Shown one piece after another: positions 10,860 to 22,755 of a stretch of DNA of 33,026 nucleotides. The position numbers were made by a program, and so were the translations under genes. Source of the stretch: Candidatus Nitrosopumilus sp. GTDB taxonomy: Archaea; Thermoproteota; Nitrososphaeria; Nitrososphaerales; Nitrosopumilaceae. A model generated the notes under the pieces. It did not search any database and was not told the origin of the DNA. It worked only from the letters and a program-made list of their open reading frames with translations. Position 1 is the stretch's first letter. Every line of letters starts with the position of its first letter. The stretch is taken from NCBI GenBank assembly GCA_013911135.1, contig JACERO010000065.1, forward strand, positions 1 to 33,026, given 5' to 3'.

Positions 10860-13800
10860 TTATTCAAATTTGTCATAAGGCTCAATTGGTTCTTTAGTAG
10901 TTTCATTATCTTTGAGCCACTCCAAAGTTTTTACAAATGAATCTGCTAATTCAATAGTTGTCAAAACAGGAATTCCCAATTCCAAAGATTTTCGCCTAAT
11001 TTGAAATTCATCATCAAGCATTCCAACATATTTTTCTAAAGTAGTAGTACTTGGAATGTTTATGATAAAATCAATCTTTCGTTCATATAGAAGATCAGAA
11101 ATATTTGGTTTTCGTTCAGGCTCTGAAATTTTATGAGCTATTTCTATTTGACCTATTTTTTCTTCAAAGAATTCTGCAGTATGTTCAGTTGCCAAAATTT
11201 TGAATCCAAGGTGTTTGAGTTTTGCAATAGCTGCAACAAGTTTTTGTTTATTTTGTTCACCGCCAACAGTTACAAGGGCAGTTCCTTTATCAGGTAAATG
11301 ATAACCAACTGAAATCAAACCTTTTGATAGTGCATCATGGAAACTATTTCCGAAACAGGCAGCCTCACCAGTGGATTGCATCTCAACTCCTAATGTAATA
11401 TCTGCACCTTGTAGTTGCATAAAGGAAAATTGTGGAACTTTGATTCCATAGTTGTGAATCTTTTGCCACTTGTTTTCAGGTATTTTAGGCAGAGGTTTAT
11501 CCAAAATAGCCTTTGATGCAAGAGAAATTAGATTCATTTTAACAAGTTTTGAAACAAATGGCATAGAACGTGACGCTCTAATGTTTAGCTCAATTACATA
11601 GACATGATCATCATGAACCAAGTATTGGAGGTTAAACGGACCTTTGACATTAAAGGTAAGAGCAATCTTTTTTGTATATTCATTAATGGTCTCAATGATT
11701 TTGTTACTTAATCTCCATGGTGGGATACACATCATAGCATCTCCTGAGTGAACACCAGCACTATCAATGTGCTCAAGAATTGCACCAATGATTACTTGTT
11801 CTCCATTACTGATTCCATCAACATCCACTTCAAGGGAGTTTAACATGAATTTTGAAATTACAACAGGGTGATCAGGTGAAACATCAGCTGCTGCCTTGAC
11901 ATACATCTTTAGTTCTGTTTGAGACCAAACAACTTTCATGGCAGCACCAGAAAGAACATAAGATGGCCTTACAATTACTGGAAATTCAACTTCTTGTGCA
12001 AAGTTTTTGGCTTCATTAAGATTTGAGAATGCTTGCCAACGTGGTTGCTGTATGTGTAGTTTATCAAGCTCTGCACTAAACTTTGAACGATTTTCTGCCC
12101 TATCAACATCAGATGCACTAGTTCCCAAAATATTTACACCGTGTTTAGCAAGACCAGGAGTTAGATTATTTGCAGTCTGTCCTCCAACACAAGTAATTAT
12201 TCCTTTAGGATGTTCAAATTCAGTAATATCTAAAATTCTTTCTTGAGTTAATTCTTCAAAGTATAATCGTGTACAAATATCATAATCAGTAGATACTGTT
12301 TCGGGATTACAGTTTACTACAGAGATATTTTTTTCACCGTTTTCTTGTAGACCCCAAACCATATTGACAGTGCCCCAATCAAATTCTACGCTACTTCCAA
12401 TTCTATAGGGTCCAGCTCCTAGTACAACAATTCCTTTTTCATCAGATGGAATCTCAATGTCATGAGAATGACCACCATATGTGAGATATAGATAGTTTGT
12501 AACTGCAGGCCATTCTGCTGCAAGCGTGTCAATCTGCTTTACAGAGGGTAAAACACCCAATTTCTTGCGTAAATCACGCACTTCATCAGGTGTTTTGCCT
12601 TTAACACGAGCAATTTGCTTATCTGAAAAACCCATTTTTTTGGCTTCCCAAAGGAGGGATTCTCCTAGTTCAGAGTCTTTTAATTTTGATTCAATATTTA
12701 CAATATTTTTTATCTTTTCAATAAACCAAGGATCAATTGTAGAGAGTTTGTAAATTCGCTCAACTGAAATTCCCATCTTTAATGCAATTGCGACATTGTA
12801 CAAAATATGATCATCATGATAAGTAAGTTTATTTTCAATTTCTTCTTCGTTGTAGGTTTTTCCATTAACACGATTAAGAACTAGACCATCGTTTCCAATG
12901 TCTAGCATTCGAATTGATTTTTGAAGTGATTCCTCAAAAGTTCTACCTACTGCCATTACTTCTCCTACTGATTTCATTGCGGGTCCAAGTTTTCTATTCA
13001 CAAGTTCAAACTTTTCAAAATCCCATCGAGGATGTTTACATACAATATAATCAAGTGATGGCTCAAAACATGCAGTAGTACTTTTTGTAATTCTATTTAC
13101 TAGTTCTGATAAATTATAACCCAATCCAATTTTTGCAGACATGTATGCTAGTGGATACCCTGTTGCTTTACTTGCAAGAGCAGAAGAACGTGAAAGTCTT
13201 GGATTTATTTCAATTGCAACATATCTGTCAGAGTTTGGTTCAAGTGCATATTGAATATTGCATTCACCAACAATTCCCACATGTTTGGTTGCACGTAATG
13301 CTGCAGAACGCAACATATGATATTCATGATTATCAATTGTTTGTGATGGAGCAACTACAATATTATCACCAGTGTGAGCTTTCATAGAAAGAACATTTTC
13401 CATGTTACAAACAATGATATTATTTCCATCATAATCCTGCATTACTTCATACTCGATTTGTTTCCAGTGTTCAATGTATTCTTCAATTAGGACTTGGCCA
13501 ACAATACTTGCTCTGAAACCTCGCTCAACAATCTCATGAAGTTCAATTTCATTATAGGCAACGCCACCACCTCGTCCACCCAGAGTATATGCAACACGAA
13601 TTATTACAGGATATGATAATTCTTCAGCTGCTTTTTTAGCATCATCAAAGTTAGTCACGGTTTTGCTTCTCAAAACAGGAACTCCTAATTCATTCATTGA
13701 ATCCTTAAAGAGTTGCCTATCCTCAGTTTTCTGGATTCCTTTAATTGAGGTTCCAAGTACGTTAACACCATATTTTTGAAGTATACCAGATTCATCTAAC

Positions 13801-14102
13801 TTAACCCCACAATTAAGAGCAGTTTGTCCACCATATGCCAACATAATTCCATCTGGTCTTTCTTTTTCGATAATTGATTTTACATACTCTGGGTTTACTG
13901 GAAGTAGATACACTTGATCTGCAAATCTAGTATCTGTTTGGATTGTTGCAATGTTTGGGTTGATTAAAACACTTTTCAATCCATCTTCATGTATTGCTTT
14001 GAGGCATTGACTTCCAGAGTAATCAAATTCACCAGCTTCGCCAATTTTAATGGCCCCACTTCCCAATACAAGAATTTTCTTTAAGGATTCATTCTTTGGC
14101 AT
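10860..14102 (-). CDS. carB: Carbamoyl-phosphate synthase large subunit
   Basis: Makes carbamoyl phosphate for pyrimidines and arginine from bicarbonate, ammonia and two ATP. The 1,080-aa protein is full length. The first ATP-grasp half begins at LGSGAIKIGEAGEFDYSGSQ, with EINPRLSRSSALASKATGYP as a metal/ATP motif. The oligomerisation region follows. The second half begins at VLGAGPYRIGSSVEFDW, with ELNIRASRSMPFVSK. The C-terminal MGS-like allosteric domain runs from about residue 935 (GTALVTVGGEQNK). It lies 4 bases downstream of carA. No frameshift occurs across 3.2 kb, which matters for judging base quality elsewhere in the window. Confidence 0.97.
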   Translation of the reverse strand: MPKNESLKKILVLGSGAIKIGEAGEFDYSGSQCLKAIHEDGLKSVLINPNIATIQTDTRFADQVYLLPVNPEYVKSIIEKERPDGIMLAYGGQTALNCGVKLDESGILQKYGVNVLGTSIKGIQKTEDRQLFKDSMNELGVPVLRSKTVTNFDDAKKAAEELSYPVIIRVAYTLGGRGGGVAYNEIELHEIVERGFRASIVGQVLIEEYIEHWKQIEYEVMQDYDGNNIIVCNMENVLSMKAHTGDNIVVAPSQTIDNHEYHMLRSAALRATKHVGIVGECNIQYALEPNSDRYVAIEINPRLSRSSALASKATGYPLAYMSAKIGLGYNLSELVNRITKSTTACFEPSLDYIVCKHPRWDFEKFELVNRKLGPAMKSVGEVMAVGRTFEESLQKSIRMLDIGNDGLVLNRVNGKTYNEEEIENKLTYHDDHILYNVAIALKMGISVERIYKLSTIDPWFIEKIKNIVNIESKLKDSELGESLLWEAKKMGFSDKQIARVKGKTPDEVRDLRKKLGVLPSVKQIDTLAAEWPAVTNYLYLTYGGHSHDIEIPSDEKGIVVLGAGPYRIGSSVEFDWGTVNMVWGLQENGEKNISVVNCNPETVSTDYDICTRLYFEELTQERILDITEFEHPKGIITCVGGQTANNLTPGLAKHGVNILGTSASDVDRAENRSKFSAELDKLHIQQPRWQAFSNLNEAKNFAQEVEFPVIVRPSYVLSGAAMKVVWSQTELKMYVKAAADVSPDHPVVISKFMLNSLEVDVDGISNGEQVIIGAILEHIDSAGVHSGDAMMCIPPWRLSNKIIETINEYTKKIALTFNVKGPFNLQYLVHDDHVYVIELNIRASRSMPFVSKLVKMNLISLASKAILDKPLPKIPENKWQKIHNYGIKVPQFSFMQLQGADITLGVEMQSTGEAACFGNSFHDALSKGLISVGYHLPDKGTALVTVGGEQNKQKLVAAIAKLKHLGFKILATEHTAEFFEEKIGQIEIAHKISEPERKPNISDLLYERKIDFIINIPSTTTLEKYVGMLDDEFQIRRKSLELGIPVLTTIELADSFVKTLEWLKDNETTKEPIEPYDKFE

Positions 14103-14106
14103 TTGT

Positions 14107-15258
14107 TCATTTCTCCATAAGATGTTTTAGCTCTTCAAAGACAAACTTGCAATCAAAAGGACCTGGTGAAGCCTCTGGATGAAACTGTACTGCAATACAA
14201 TTTTGTTTTTTGTGTTTTATTCCTTCAACTGTTTTGTCGTCTGCATTTGTAAACCATAAATTAAAATCAGATTTTTCTAAAGACTCAGGAGTAATTCCAT
14301 ATCCATGATTCTGACTAGTAACATAGACTTGATTATTTTCTAAATTGACACAAGGTTTGTTTTGTCCTCGATGTCCATACTTTAGTTTGTAAGTTTCAGT
14401 ATTTCCTGCAATTCCAATAATTTGTGCACCTAAACAAATTCCCAATGTGGGAATATTGTTTTCGATTAATTTTTTAGCAGTATCAATTGTATCAGGACAT
14501 TTTTGTGGATCACCAGGACCACTACTAAGTACAACCCCTTTAGGATGGTAAGACATTATTTTCTCATATGTAGTATCCCAAGGAACCAAAATTGCTTTGT
14601 AACCAAGTTCACGAACATTTCTTAAAATTGCATTTTTTGCACCAGTATCAATTACAACAACGGATTTATCATCATCACCATAAACTTGTTCTTGTTTTGT
14701 AGATACTATATCCATGAATTGCTCAGAGTCATAATGAACCGCTGATGCAAGTTCTTTTTTGACTTGCTCAACATCAATTTCAGAATCAGATATCACAAGA
14801 GCAGCCATCATAACACCTCCTGTCCTGAGTTTCTTTGTTAATTCACGAGTATCAATTCCAGATATTCCAGGTACCTTTTCGTTGTACATCCACTCATCAA
14901 GAGTCATTGAGAGATTCCAATGACTGGCAGTTAGAGATAACTCATGAACCACCAAACCGCGAATTTGTATTTTATCGGATTCAAAGAATTTTGGGATACC
15001 ATCATCGTCCTTGATTGAAGGATCAGGAACTCCATAATTTCCAACTAGAGGATACGTGAGTGTAAGAATTTGACCATTATATGATGGATCAGTTAGAGCT
15101 TCCGGGTATCCAACCATCCCAGTGTTAAAGACAATTTCACCAAAAACAGTTGTAGAATAACCAAAACCTTGACCATCAAGAACAATACCATCATCAAAAA
15201 CCAGCTTTCCAAACTTGTTTGCGTGTTTTGATTTTTTGGTAGTTATTGTTACCCTCGT
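14107..15258 (-). CDS. carA: Carbamoyl-phosphate synthase small (glutaminase) subunit; start unclear
   Basis: Supplies ammonia from glutamine to CarB. The amidotransferase domain is intact: LSSGPGDPQ, GICLGAQIIG with the nucleophile Cys, SQNHGYG, and FHPEASPGPFD with the His-Glu pair. The first ATG in frame (15115-15117) falls inside the conserved N-terminal domain (NTGMVGYPEALTDPSYN), so it cannot be the natural start. Open reading continues upstream as KFGKLVFDDGIVLDGQGFGY and further to RVTITTKKS, back to a stop at 15280-15282. No ATG, GTG or TTG occurs in that stretch. I end the feature at an ACG codon (15256-15258) as a best guess; ATT codons lie a little further upstream. An AT-rich box (CTTAAATTAATATT) lies just upstream. 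Confidence 0.85.
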   Translation of the reverse strand, partial: TRVTITTKKSKHANKFGKLVFDDGIVLDGQGFGYSTTVFGEIVFNTGMVGYPEALTDPSYNGQILTLTYPLVGNYGVPDPSIKDDDGIPKFFESDKIQIRGLVVHELSLTASHWNLSMTLDEWMYNEKVPGISGIDTRELTKKLRTGGVMMAALVISDSEIDVEQVKKELASAVHYDSEQFMDIVSTKQEQVYGDDDKSVVVIDTGAKNAILRNVRELGYKAILVPWDTTYEKIMSYHPKGVVLSSGPGDPQKCPDTIDTAKKLIENNIPTLGICLGAQIIGIAGNTETYKLKYGHRGQNKPCVNLENNQVYVTSQNHGYGITPESLEKSDFNLWFTNADDKTVEGIKHKKQNCIAVQFHPEASPGPFDCKFVFEELKHLMEK

Positions 15259-15337
15259 TGAGTCCGAATGAATATTAATTTAAGTTTTTGTTCGGAAAAG
15301 AAATGGAAAAGTATTGATCGCAATAAAATTTGTCTGA

Positions 15338-16531
15338 TCAGAGTGCTTTGAACTCTTCGCTCCATTTGTGATAAGCACGAATCATTTCAGTAGAAACACT
15401 TGGTTTTCTTCTTGTCATGATATTCTTAAAATCAGAAGTGGTAAGTTCTCTCGGTTGTACAGGTGTTTCACCCTCTATTGGTTCATGATAATCTGGAGAA
15501 TTAAATATTTCATGTACTGTTTTAATTTGTGCGGCTTGACAGACATCTTTAATATCACTTGCACTATATCCATCAAACAGTTTTGCCAAGTCAGCAGGGT
15601 TTACTTTGAAATCTTTTCTTAATGGAGCAGTATATTCCTCAAATAGGTGTTGTCTGGCTTCTTGTGATGGTAGTGAAACGTAAATTCTCTTTTGAAATCG
15701 TCGTAAGAAAGGCCAATCAAGACTCCATGGTTTGTTTGTTGCTCCAATTACATAGAGCATCAAATCTTTTCCTTTACCATTAACACCATCCATCTCAGTT
15801 AGAAATTGGTTTTTGGTTCTTACTTCTCCACCAACTTCACTAGTTCTGGAACCCAATAAAGAATCAACTTCATCTACAAACAAAATAACAGGTTTGCCTT
15901 CTTTTTCAGCATATTGTCTTGCCATAGTAAATAATTTTGAAACATTCTTTTCTGCTTCACCTAACCATTTACTCATCATAGATGATGCATCGACATTGAT
16001 AAAATAACCATCCATCTCATTTGCAGTAGCTGCTGCTAGCATTGTTTTTCCAGTACCTGGTGGTCCGTATAGTAGCATTCCTTTTGGCCATCCAAGAGGA
16101 AACAAGTCAGGTCTTTTAGCAGGATATATGATTGATTCACGTAATGCACTTTTAGCATCCTCCAAACCAATTACTTGTGCCCATGTAACATCAGGTTTTT
16201 CTTTCATCACAAGGTCTTCAAAGTCATTTTCTGCTTCTTGTCTTTGTACAGATGCCTTTTGATCTTTAGATGATGCTTTTGGATCAACTGCAGGTTCTAC
16301 TCCATGAGCCTGTTGTAATGCATTAATTCGATTATGATAAGAGTTACATCTTTCTTTGTAAATTTGGTTTAGTTTGCTTTGAGGGTATAGTTGTAATAGT
16401 TTTACAAGTGCATCAATTGCATGCTGATAGTGTGAAATTGCCATACCACGAGCACCTTGAGAATCATATTTGATTGCCTCTGAGGCATATTTACTAGCAG
16501 TATTTTCTAATTCTTGTGGGGCTAAACTCAT
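15338..16531 (-). CDS. cdvC: Vps4-like AAA ATPase CdvC
   Basis: The ATPase that remodels or disassembles ESCRT-III filaments in archaeal cell division. The 397-aa protein has an N-terminal MIT domain (about residues 5-77, three helices), a linker, and one AAA module. Walker A is GPPGTGKT at residues 156-163, Walker B is ILFVDEVDS at about 216-224, and the sensor/Arg-finger region has ATNKPWSLDWPFLRRF. A Vps4-type C-terminus follows. It is the last gene of a three-gene minus-strand operon with an ESCRT-III-like protein and an unknown partner. Confidence 0.93.
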   Translation of the reverse strand: MSLAPQELENTASKYASEAIKYDSQGARGMAISHYQHAIDALVKLLQLYPQSKLNQIYKERCNSYHNRINALQQAHGVEPAVDPKASSKDQKASVQRQEAENDFEDLVMKEKPDVTWAQVIGLEDAKSALRESIIYPAKRPDLFPLGWPKGMLLYGPPGTGKTMLAAATANEMDGYFINVDASSMMSKWLGEAEKNVSKLFTMARQYAEKEGKPVILFVDEVDSLLGSRTSEVGGEVRTKNQFLTEMDGVNGKGKDLMLYVIGATNKPWSLDWPFLRRFQKRIYVSLPSQEARQHLFEEYTAPLRKDFKVNPADLAKLFDGYSASDIKDVCQAAQIKTVHEIFNSPDYHEPIEGETPVQPRELTTSDFKNIMTRRKPSVSTEMIRAYHKWSEEFKAL

Positions 16532-19743: not shown

Positions 19744-22700
19744 TTATTTTTTACCAGAATAACGTTGTATTTTAACTCCAGATTCAGATACATCAAGTGT
19801 CATAATTGATGGACCTACGATTTGGTAATAGCCCTCCACACCTAGTAATTCCACATAATACGATGTATCAAGATTAAAACTAATAGGACAAAATCCACGT
19901 TCATTAATATCGCAAACTTGATCATAGTATGTGTTTTCAGAGTTACCTACTTTTTTGTATATTTCTGGTTCTGTACCTTTAGCAAGTTGTTTACCATTTC
20001 CATCTTGAAAATGCCAAAGCAAACATGATTTACCGCCATATTCATTGTCAAAACAATAATTATTTGCTTGAATAATTACAGTTCTTTCAGCAGTAATTGG
20101 CAGCATACTTGAATATTCGTTGTTACCAGGAGGCCATTCTAAAATCATCATGTCTCCATCTCCAACATAGTCTGTATGTGGAAAAGTAAATGTAACAGAT
20201 GATTTAGCAGGTTCTGCAGGAGTACGTATTTCACTTGAAGTTAAATACCGTATAAATGTAATAGTTCCATTCTCATCAAGTTTCCCATAAGGCATTGAAC
20301 CATGCCACCATTCTTTAGATTGTGTAAGAGATTCTACTCCAATAATATATTCTCCATCTATGCGTGCCTCTGCCCATTCATCAGGTATCTCTCCAGTTAA
20401 AATAGCCAGAGTCCATGAATATAGCACCTTGTGATCAAATCCAGCTTCAGTATAATATTGTGCTTTTTTATCAATTACACAAAGAATCCTGTCAGGTGGC
20501 GTGTCCATTTTAATTAATTTTTCTAAATGTTCTTGATTGACACTTAGACAATTAGATGTATCAAATTCTGATTTTGTATATTGCTCAAAATTAAAGTCAA
20601 CTAAATAAGATGGACCAATGTACACATTTGGAGGCTTTGGGATCATGCTGCTTATAGATACGGTATATTTTTTAGTATCATTATGTACCCGTAATTTTTG
20701 TTGAATGATTCCATCGTCATCAATGTTATGTACACGTTGTGATGGCTGTGTAATTTCTGAAGAGCTTAAGAATTCTTCAATATCAAGAATAGCAAATCCC
20801 GATGTAGGGATACCAATTAAATTCTCAAATGTTATTAAAACGGTGGCATCAGAATTGAGTGCTCCATTATATTGTGTTGAAATGTCAGTTATACAAATCA
20901 ATTCTTCAGGAGTTTTACTCTTTATTGCCTTATCAAAGATCTTTTGATCAATTTCAATACATTTTGATGTATCAAATTTTGGTTTAGGTAAATCAAAGAA
21001 TATAGAATCAAAACTACTTTGAATTTGCATAAAGGTTCTACCATTTTTTGTAATAATCTCCCAATCTCCTCCAATTGGTGGTAATGCGTCTTCTGCCTCT
21101 AGTTTTTCTTTATCTACAATGATATAATCAATGTCCATAATTCTAAAGAAATCTGGATCATCATATTTTTTTTCTGTTAAATCAGATTCATTTGTAAATA
21201 AAAGACGTAGGGACTCTGTATATTTTGGAACATTAACTATTTTTTCGGTAAATAAATTGTTGCCATAACTCCAGGATAATGTTTTTTCAAAAACAATTTT
21301 TTCATCTATTTCTCCAACGATGTTTACTTCAACAGGAGATGGAAAATCATTTTTTATCATGATTTTAATTGGTTTTGTATGCCCAAAGTCTTTTTGAAGA
21401 TTTTTCTTTTTACTAGTTAACTCATTAGGTGTTGTCTCTTCATTAGATTCATCTACATCTTTTTCATTTCCATTTTTCTTGCATGGATCTTCTTCTCCAA
21501 ATGCTAATGGTATTTCAAAAATGAGTTTAGGACCATTAAATGAGCCTAATTTTTTATCTTTACATGGATCTGAGATTATTATGTCAAGTGAGAAATCAAT
21601 GGGGTAATTTTTAGGGTAATGATTTTCAGAGCAAGGTCCGCCATCATGGGTGTCTCCATCATTATATCCATTATACACACAATTTGCTTTCCAGTTAATT
21701 TGATACGTTCCCGGTTTAATTGACGGTGAAGAAACAATTAAAATATTTTCAATCACCTTGTTCTTTTCATGAGGTTGTAATATTATTTCAGTAAGTTTTT
21801 CAGTACCCAATAGAAATGGGGCAGGATGTATTGGATCTTTCATTGATTTTGACGAAATTTGATAATCAACTTTTGTATTATAATTCCCTGTGTTTAAGGT
21901 AATTTTGTACGTACATACATCTCCGGCCTCTAGAATAATTTTTTTCTTAAATAGATCTACTAGTTCTGAATTTTTACAGATATTATTTGGTAATTTTGGT
22001 ATTATTCTTATGGTATCTTGTGATGCATGTGATTCAGAAGTTTTTTCAGGTTCAGGAATTATTTCAGGATCTGTTTTTTCATCTATAACTTCAATGGTAA
22101 CTGTTCTTGGAGGTAGACAAAATGAATTGGTGGAACCCCCAAGAAAATCACATTTAGTTTCATAAACAAACTGATACTGTCCAGGTGCTTGATCTTTAGG
22201 AATAGAAATTTCATATGGTATTTCACATATCTTTCCAGACTCAACTAATGGGAATGAAAATATTTTTTGAGAATACCATGAAATATTTTCACCAACAACT
22301 GTCACGTCATTTGAAGTATTAGAATTTCCAAATGCGGATGTTGTTTGTGTAACTTCTAGTGTCTCTCCAGGATTTGCCTTTATATTTGTCCAATCAGAAG
22401 GAGATATTGAACCAATGTCTTCACAATTTGCAGTAGCAACAGATTTGTTGATAATTACTGGAATAGTATCAGGAATGATGGGTTCTGATTCATCTAAATT
22501 GCCAGAACCAGTTTTTTGAATATCACGTAGAATTCCTTTAGAGGTTAATTTATCTCCATTCTTTGCATCAGGTTTCACTTCAATCTTAAGTATCATTTTA
22601 TCGTTAATTTGACCAGAATTTTTAGCAATACAACTAGCCACAAAATCCAAGCCACCTATGAACTTGGTAATTCTACATTCTTCAACTATGCTACCGTCTT

Positions 22701-22755
22701 TTTCTAGCTTGATGCTATTCACTTGATTTTGATCAAAATATACTCTTAATTTCAA
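19744..22755 (-). pseudogene. Giant secreted/surface protein, C-terminal part (1,003 codons)
   Basis: The largest piece of a gene that seems to start at 23698. Its own start would be a TTG at 22755 sitting in the previous part's stop, and the sense of the protein runs straight across if one A is restored in the A8 run just upstream (HKKKLKLRVYFD). The sequence looks extracellular: beta-rich, with many Cys. Two related Ig-like domains each end in PGxYQ...C...G...C (about residues 190-215 and 345-375). There is a Glu/Asp/Lys-rich linker, and a duplicated motif KFDTSKCIEIDQ / EFDTSNCLSVNQ (about residues 590 and 728). No ATPase or protease motif and no C-terminal membrane span. Family unknown. 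Confidence 0.7.

Follow-up and report, generated by a model that had tools for sequence, protein, structure and literature searches.

The carA gene of Nitrosopumilus-like archaea and of the relatives examined appears, by comparison of their sequences, to begin at a very rare AUU or AUA codon and not at AUG. In the window, the whole 33,026-nucleotide stretch of DNA that was analysed and an entire contig (G000:C11) of a 1.71 Mb draft genome in 107 contigs, carA very probably starts at the ATA at 15246-15244, where most relatives carry ATT. The nearest named relatives of the window are Thaumarchaeota, for instance Nitrosopumilus. The explanation as a whole, an ATA start behind a short leader whose weakness is probably selected, is given a probability of roughly 0.8. 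The features of the coding region are the following:

10860..14102, minus strand: carB, with an ATG start 4 nt after the carA stop and no insert in the window genome
14107..15246, minus strand: carA (carbamoyl-phosphate synthase small subunit), 379 aa if ATA is the start
15115..15117, minus strand: ATG, first standard in-frame start of carA and an internal Met (Met in 149/149 aligned loci)
15244..15246, minus strand: ATA, proposed start codon of carA (ATT or ATA in 146/147 distinct related loci)

On the minus strand, the carA frame is open from the TAA at 15282-15280 to the stop at 14109-14107, and between this TAA and the ATG at 15117-15115 it contains no in-frame ATG, GTG or TTG. Two segments conserved in carA, KFGKLVFDDG and GEIVFNTGMVG, both lie upstream of this ATG. 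The first-pass annotation had described a conserved N-terminus beyond the reach of any standard start and a carB gene directly following; the window frame and the related loci bear out the former, and the 4-nt gap before the carB ATG at 14102 agrees with the latter. The frame matches the profiles expected of a glutamine-dependent small subunit (CarA), PF00988, PF00117 and TIGR01368, all above cut-off. With the upstream part included, the Pfam domain CPSase_sm_chain (PF00988) is matched from profile position 1, which corresponds to residue 26 of the stop-to-stop frame, as opposed to position 30 without it, so that the form starting at ATG lacks 29 profile positions; TIGR01368 is matched from position 2 versus 32. 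Solved CarA chains, such as 1bxr_B, which we take to be the E. coli enzyme, align from query residue 24. Since the full Pfam and TIGR domains need the upstream residues, the upstream stretch is, by its domain matches, part of the enzyme. Directly upstream of carA (15338-16531, minus strand) lies a gene for an AAA ATPase with MIT and Vps4_C domains (Vps4/CdvC-like); farther away (19744-22755, minus strand), a TTG-start frame of 1003 aa gave no Pfam match at E 0.001.

For comparison, carA places were fetched from 83 of the 95 genus genomes, the window's own included; three genomes with split matches (G029, G046, G050) were left out of the fetched set, and nine others, perhaps incomplete, gave weak matches only (best E 1.9e-15 to 5.5e-4). 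Added to these were 80 named loci, 39 from other genera of family f1, 28 from other families and 30 further ones from f8 and f2. The f1 loci, the named loci (to which no family is assigned) and the window form a set of 147 distinct loci, after removal of 54 duplicates, the copies of the window locus L001 and L005, and the truncated L081. At the aligned start codon, 93 of these carry ATT, 53 ATA and one ACG (L206), and ATG, GTG, TTG and ATC occur in none of the 147; most orthologues thus have an AUU-type (Ile) codon and no AUG at this place. The codon recurs in named genomes, among them N. salaria BD31 (L062), Nsub (L065) and Nitrosarchaeum BD3 (L085). ATT is likewise found in 38/38 loci of f8, presumably Nitrososphaeraceae (a guess), and in 4/4 loci of f2, counts that refer to the fetched loci and not to every f8 genome. 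It is also present in L216 and L220 of f2 and in L212 and L213 of f3, each with an ATG three codons later, which speaks against an ATT start in these two families. Other families of the order, represented by one or two loci each, mostly have TTG, ATG or GTG within a few codons. In a single f11 locus, L227, the stretch from the stop to the internal ATG holds no standard in-frame start and an ATC stands behind AGGAGG; this ATC may be another non-standard start.

In 93 of the 147 loci, the interval that runs from the in-frame stop to 14 codons beyond the aligned position is free of ATG, GTG and TTG; the other 54 have such a codon somewhere in it. Between the stop and the start codon proper, a standard in-frame codon (for example TTG at -5 or ATG at -4) is present in 50/147 related loci and 15/38 f8 loci. 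The combination of 93 loci without any standard codon and 0/147 with one at the position itself exceeds chance.

Several features mark the ATT/ATA codon as the point at which translation begins. In-frame stops lie as near as one codon upstream, and within one to three codons in several lineages (TAG AGG GTC ACA before the ATA in Nitrosopelagicus loci, TAA AAA or TAA AAT before the ATT in f8 loci), which rules out any general start farther upstream. A GAGGG motif is separated from the codon by 5 nt in 125 loci, by 6 nt in 12 and by 8 nt in 5, and the reading frame is therefore not kept upstream of the codon. Neighbouring codons on both sides change the encoded residue, but the ATT/ATA codon does not. 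Parsimony on the 126 loci with GAGGG and a 5-nt spacer gave flat numbers of changes at codon positions 1/2/3 in the upstream interval -36 to -13 (117/112/133) and at -12 to -1 (18/18/19, the GAGGG columns being constant through the choice of loci), and a strong third-position bias downstream, from +3 to +44 (75/86/221); the coding signal starts after the ATT/ATA codon. Across 160 sequences (four short or unlike sequences skipped, loci below 53.7% identity left out), the start codon changed 19 times: nine times to ATT, nine to ATA, once to another codon and never to ATC or ATG. Changes to ATC made up 100 of 313 at eight other Ile columns, versus 0 of 18 at the start codon, an outcome with an approximate chance of 0.001 if ATC were as likely as elsewhere. 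The parsimony counts are approximate, as they come from one tree with arbitrary tie-breaking. The position of the codon, its conservation and the coding character of what follows are matters of observation. For the f8 locus L207, a start at ATT predicts MPTLQQTYTGYAAK or PTLQQTYTGYAAK, and an upstream start predicts IPTLQQTYTGYAAK after trypsin; for the window, the protein is predicted to begin (M)TTKKSKHANK.

A genome-wide control compared G187, a genome of another genus, with 940,000 of the 1,360,076 bases of G003, yielding 889 non-overlapping reciprocal-best frames. In 27 cases, conservation at half or more identity extended at least 6 residues beyond all standard starts in the two genomes alike. 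Among large protein genes, only carA has a long conserved upstream stretch in this screen; by eye, the other long cases (at least 22 residues) resemble rRNA-region or antisense frames, and most of those with 6-14 residues resemble tails of the preceding gene. The screen detects long extensions only, and neither short ones nor genes with a chance upstream TTG or GTG. A search of a plasmid collection gave only weak bacterial matches.

The region in front of the codon contains elements of a promoter and of a possible ribosome-binding site:

15252..15256, minus strand: GAGGG, 5 nt before the start; its GAGG could pair with CCTC of the 16S rRNA tail
15253..15255, minus strand: predicted transcription start, placed by the TATA spacing of another genome (G187)
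15278..15283, minus strand: TTAAAT, a TATA-like box that contains the in-frame TAA at 15282-15280
15315..15321, minus strand: GCGATCA, upstream of the TATA-like box, a candidate regulatory site

Of the 141 loci with both box and GAGGG, 137 have the box 27 nt ahead of the motif; in the 144 loci with a box, its distance to the codon is 37 nt in 123, 38 in 13, 40 in 5, 36 in 2 and 26 in one. For comparison, TATA-like hexamers were located in 216 genes of G187 whose upstream space is free (83 of 749 frames, without a standard codon in the range tried, having been dropped beforehand); they peak 28-30 nt before the start codon, as is typical of leaderless genes. Ordinary leaderless genes of the same clade have a TATA-like box of the same kind as carA, but its peak in G187 is at 28-30 nt, compared with 37 nt in most carA loci. 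As the box is farther from the codon than the G187 peak, transcription should begin within or next to GAGGG, and a leader of approximately 7-10 nt is predicted, with the transcription start placed by the promoters of another genus. In the region from -18 to -4, GAGG occurs in 8/216 and GAGGG in 0/216 of the G187 genes. The 3' end of the 16S rRNA of the same genome as the window reads GGATCACCTCCTTA, and the duplex of its tail with the leader, formed through GAGG and lying partly at the predicted 5' end, reaches about -6 to -7 kcal/mol versus -20 for a perfect match; several f8 loci keep ATT without GAGGG. The combination of TTAAA, A or T, 19-23 nt and GAGGG has nine matches in G187 and G003 together, of which two are carA. 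In 104/147 related loci, GCGATCA stands between 38 and 130 nt ahead of the start, and by this recurrence it might be a regulator site.

Of the competing explanations, a lineage-dependent start is the least improbable, but still unlikely: translation would begin at the upstream TTG (-5) or ATG (-4) where these are present, as the 50 related and 15 f8 loci with standard upstream codons would allow, and at ATT/ATA elsewhere. Positions -4 and -5 vary, however, and include stops, the predicted transcription start lies at or after these codons, and ATT/ATA is retained even where an upstream TTG or ATG exists. Translation from the internal ATG at 15117, with the upstream homology as a mere remnant, is very unlikely: although no standard start precedes it in the window frame and it encodes Met in all 149 aligned loci, the third-position-biased changes and conserved residues begin at the ATA, and the 29 Pfam positions would be cut away. 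Slightly less probable again is initiation within the gene, either at a CTG located 14 codons after the ATA (GGAAAG CTG) or at some other near-cognate codon. CTG is a known rare start codon and occupies this place in 97/149 loci, but CTA, CTC, CTT, TTA or ATA stands there in 44/149, and the 13 preceding codons evolve as coding sequence; because the codon varies as expected of an ordinary Leu codon, it is not a general start. That the window genome holds a pseudogene, or an error of assembly or reads, can practically be dismissed, even though the genome is a draft in 107 contigs, since 146 further distinct loci among the relatives, drawn from numerous separate assemblies, share the codon class.

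Among the remaining candidates, ACG was rejected as a general start: four codons ahead of the ATA, 57/149 loci have ACG and 10/149 have TAG. The upstream AGG was also rejected in this role. An AUG supplied by splicing or from a remote position was discarded as well, as the 12 nt preceding the codon lack an ATG in all three frames in 143/147 loci, and the 60 nt preceding it do so in 120/147. The first-pass annotation had named ATT, ACG and CTG as possible starts and, alternatively, a lost ATG. Its ATT type survives, ATT being the aligned codon in most relatives, whereas ACG and CTG do not as general starts, and the ATA favoured here was absent from its list. The lost ATG, or read error, is ruled out by the relatives, as ATG is absent from the aligned place in all 147 related loci and in all 42 of f8 and f2.

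In carB, which the window genome carries uninterrupted, the GEAGE and FDYS codons are separated by an insert of 20-40 nt in 108 of 192 distinct loci with a carB anchor (13 further entries lack the anchor), for example in L006, L032, L085, L207 and L374. It occurs in 68/144 f1 and named loci, 37/38 of f8, 1/1 of f3, 0/1 of f2 and 2/8 of others; it brings a stop in 94 of the 108 and a frame shift without a stop in 14, and its removal restores EAGEFDYS in all 108. A four-pair helix (pairs formed in 94, 108, 108 and 108 of 108) and an inner helix (108, 108, 108 and 106, with a fifth pair in 50) are both maintained with changes on both sides, and a shift of one strand by one or two positions disrupts most pairs, but not all. 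Single folds show two helices and a 3-nt bulge in 8 of the 12 printed and do not in the other 4. By these sequence features, the insert is likely an archaeal bulge-helix-bulge mRNA intron. Insert and odd start codon go together, for example in L006, L032 and L076: among f1 and named loci, carB starts with CTG or CTA in 59/68 with the insert (CTG 55, ATG 7, CTA 4, AAA 2) versus TTG or ATG in 73/76 without it (TTG 40, ATG 33, CTG 2, ACT 1). Many CTG-started carB genes carry a GGAGG-like site; CTG starts of carB are absent from G187 and G003 and thus lay outside the reach of the genome-wide screen.

UUG is a common alternative start codon, which AUU and AUA are not known to be. A non-AUG start of carA is not unique, because the E. 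coli gene is reported with a TTG start (PMC6245113): the same gene in another domain of life also avoids AUG, but uses UUG in place of AUU/AUA. By analogy, the nearest model for the AUU start of carA is E. coli infC, the gene for IF3, whose AUU start, according to titles cited in PMC9845219, limits infC expression and whose change to AUG abolishes autocontrol. In both cases, AUU stands where AUG would be one change away; carA differs in being archaeal, in encoding a metabolic enzyme, in using AUA too and in its short predicted leader.

The start could operate in the following manner: The transcript would begin within or beside GAGGG, leaving a leader of the short length predicted above, and the initiator Met-tRNA would read AUA or AUU with a third-base mismatch. 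Such a start would presumably be inefficient and would limit the synthesis of CarA and perhaps, via coupling across the 4 nt to carB, that of CarB. The weakness is probably selected, because an AUG encoding the same protein is one mutation away and yet absent in 147 + 42 loci; that selection has favoured it as a brake on the operon's first gene, and hence on CarA synthesis, is about an even bet. The distribution of the codon suggests that a weak start has persisted over very long evolutionary times. It is rather doubtful that AUU/AUA became established early in this archaeal order as a device of regulation, possibly combined with nucleotide sensing at the 5' end, which would make it an archaeal metabolic counterpart of infC. 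In that case, translation of carAB would depend on how strictly the ribosome discriminates against near-cognate starts, and the predicted 5' end AGGGU, in which a pyrimidine follows a run of G, could, in an operon of the pyrimidine pathway, add nucleotide sensing by start-site choice or slippage.

No report of an AUU/AUA start of carA was found in a search of open-licence papers. In annotations of this marine and soil clade, tools that accept only ATG, GTG and TTG have probably misplaced the start sites of an essential enzyme. An AUU/AUA start across two families would provide a natural and testable case of near-cognate initiation in archaea and of the use to which it is put.
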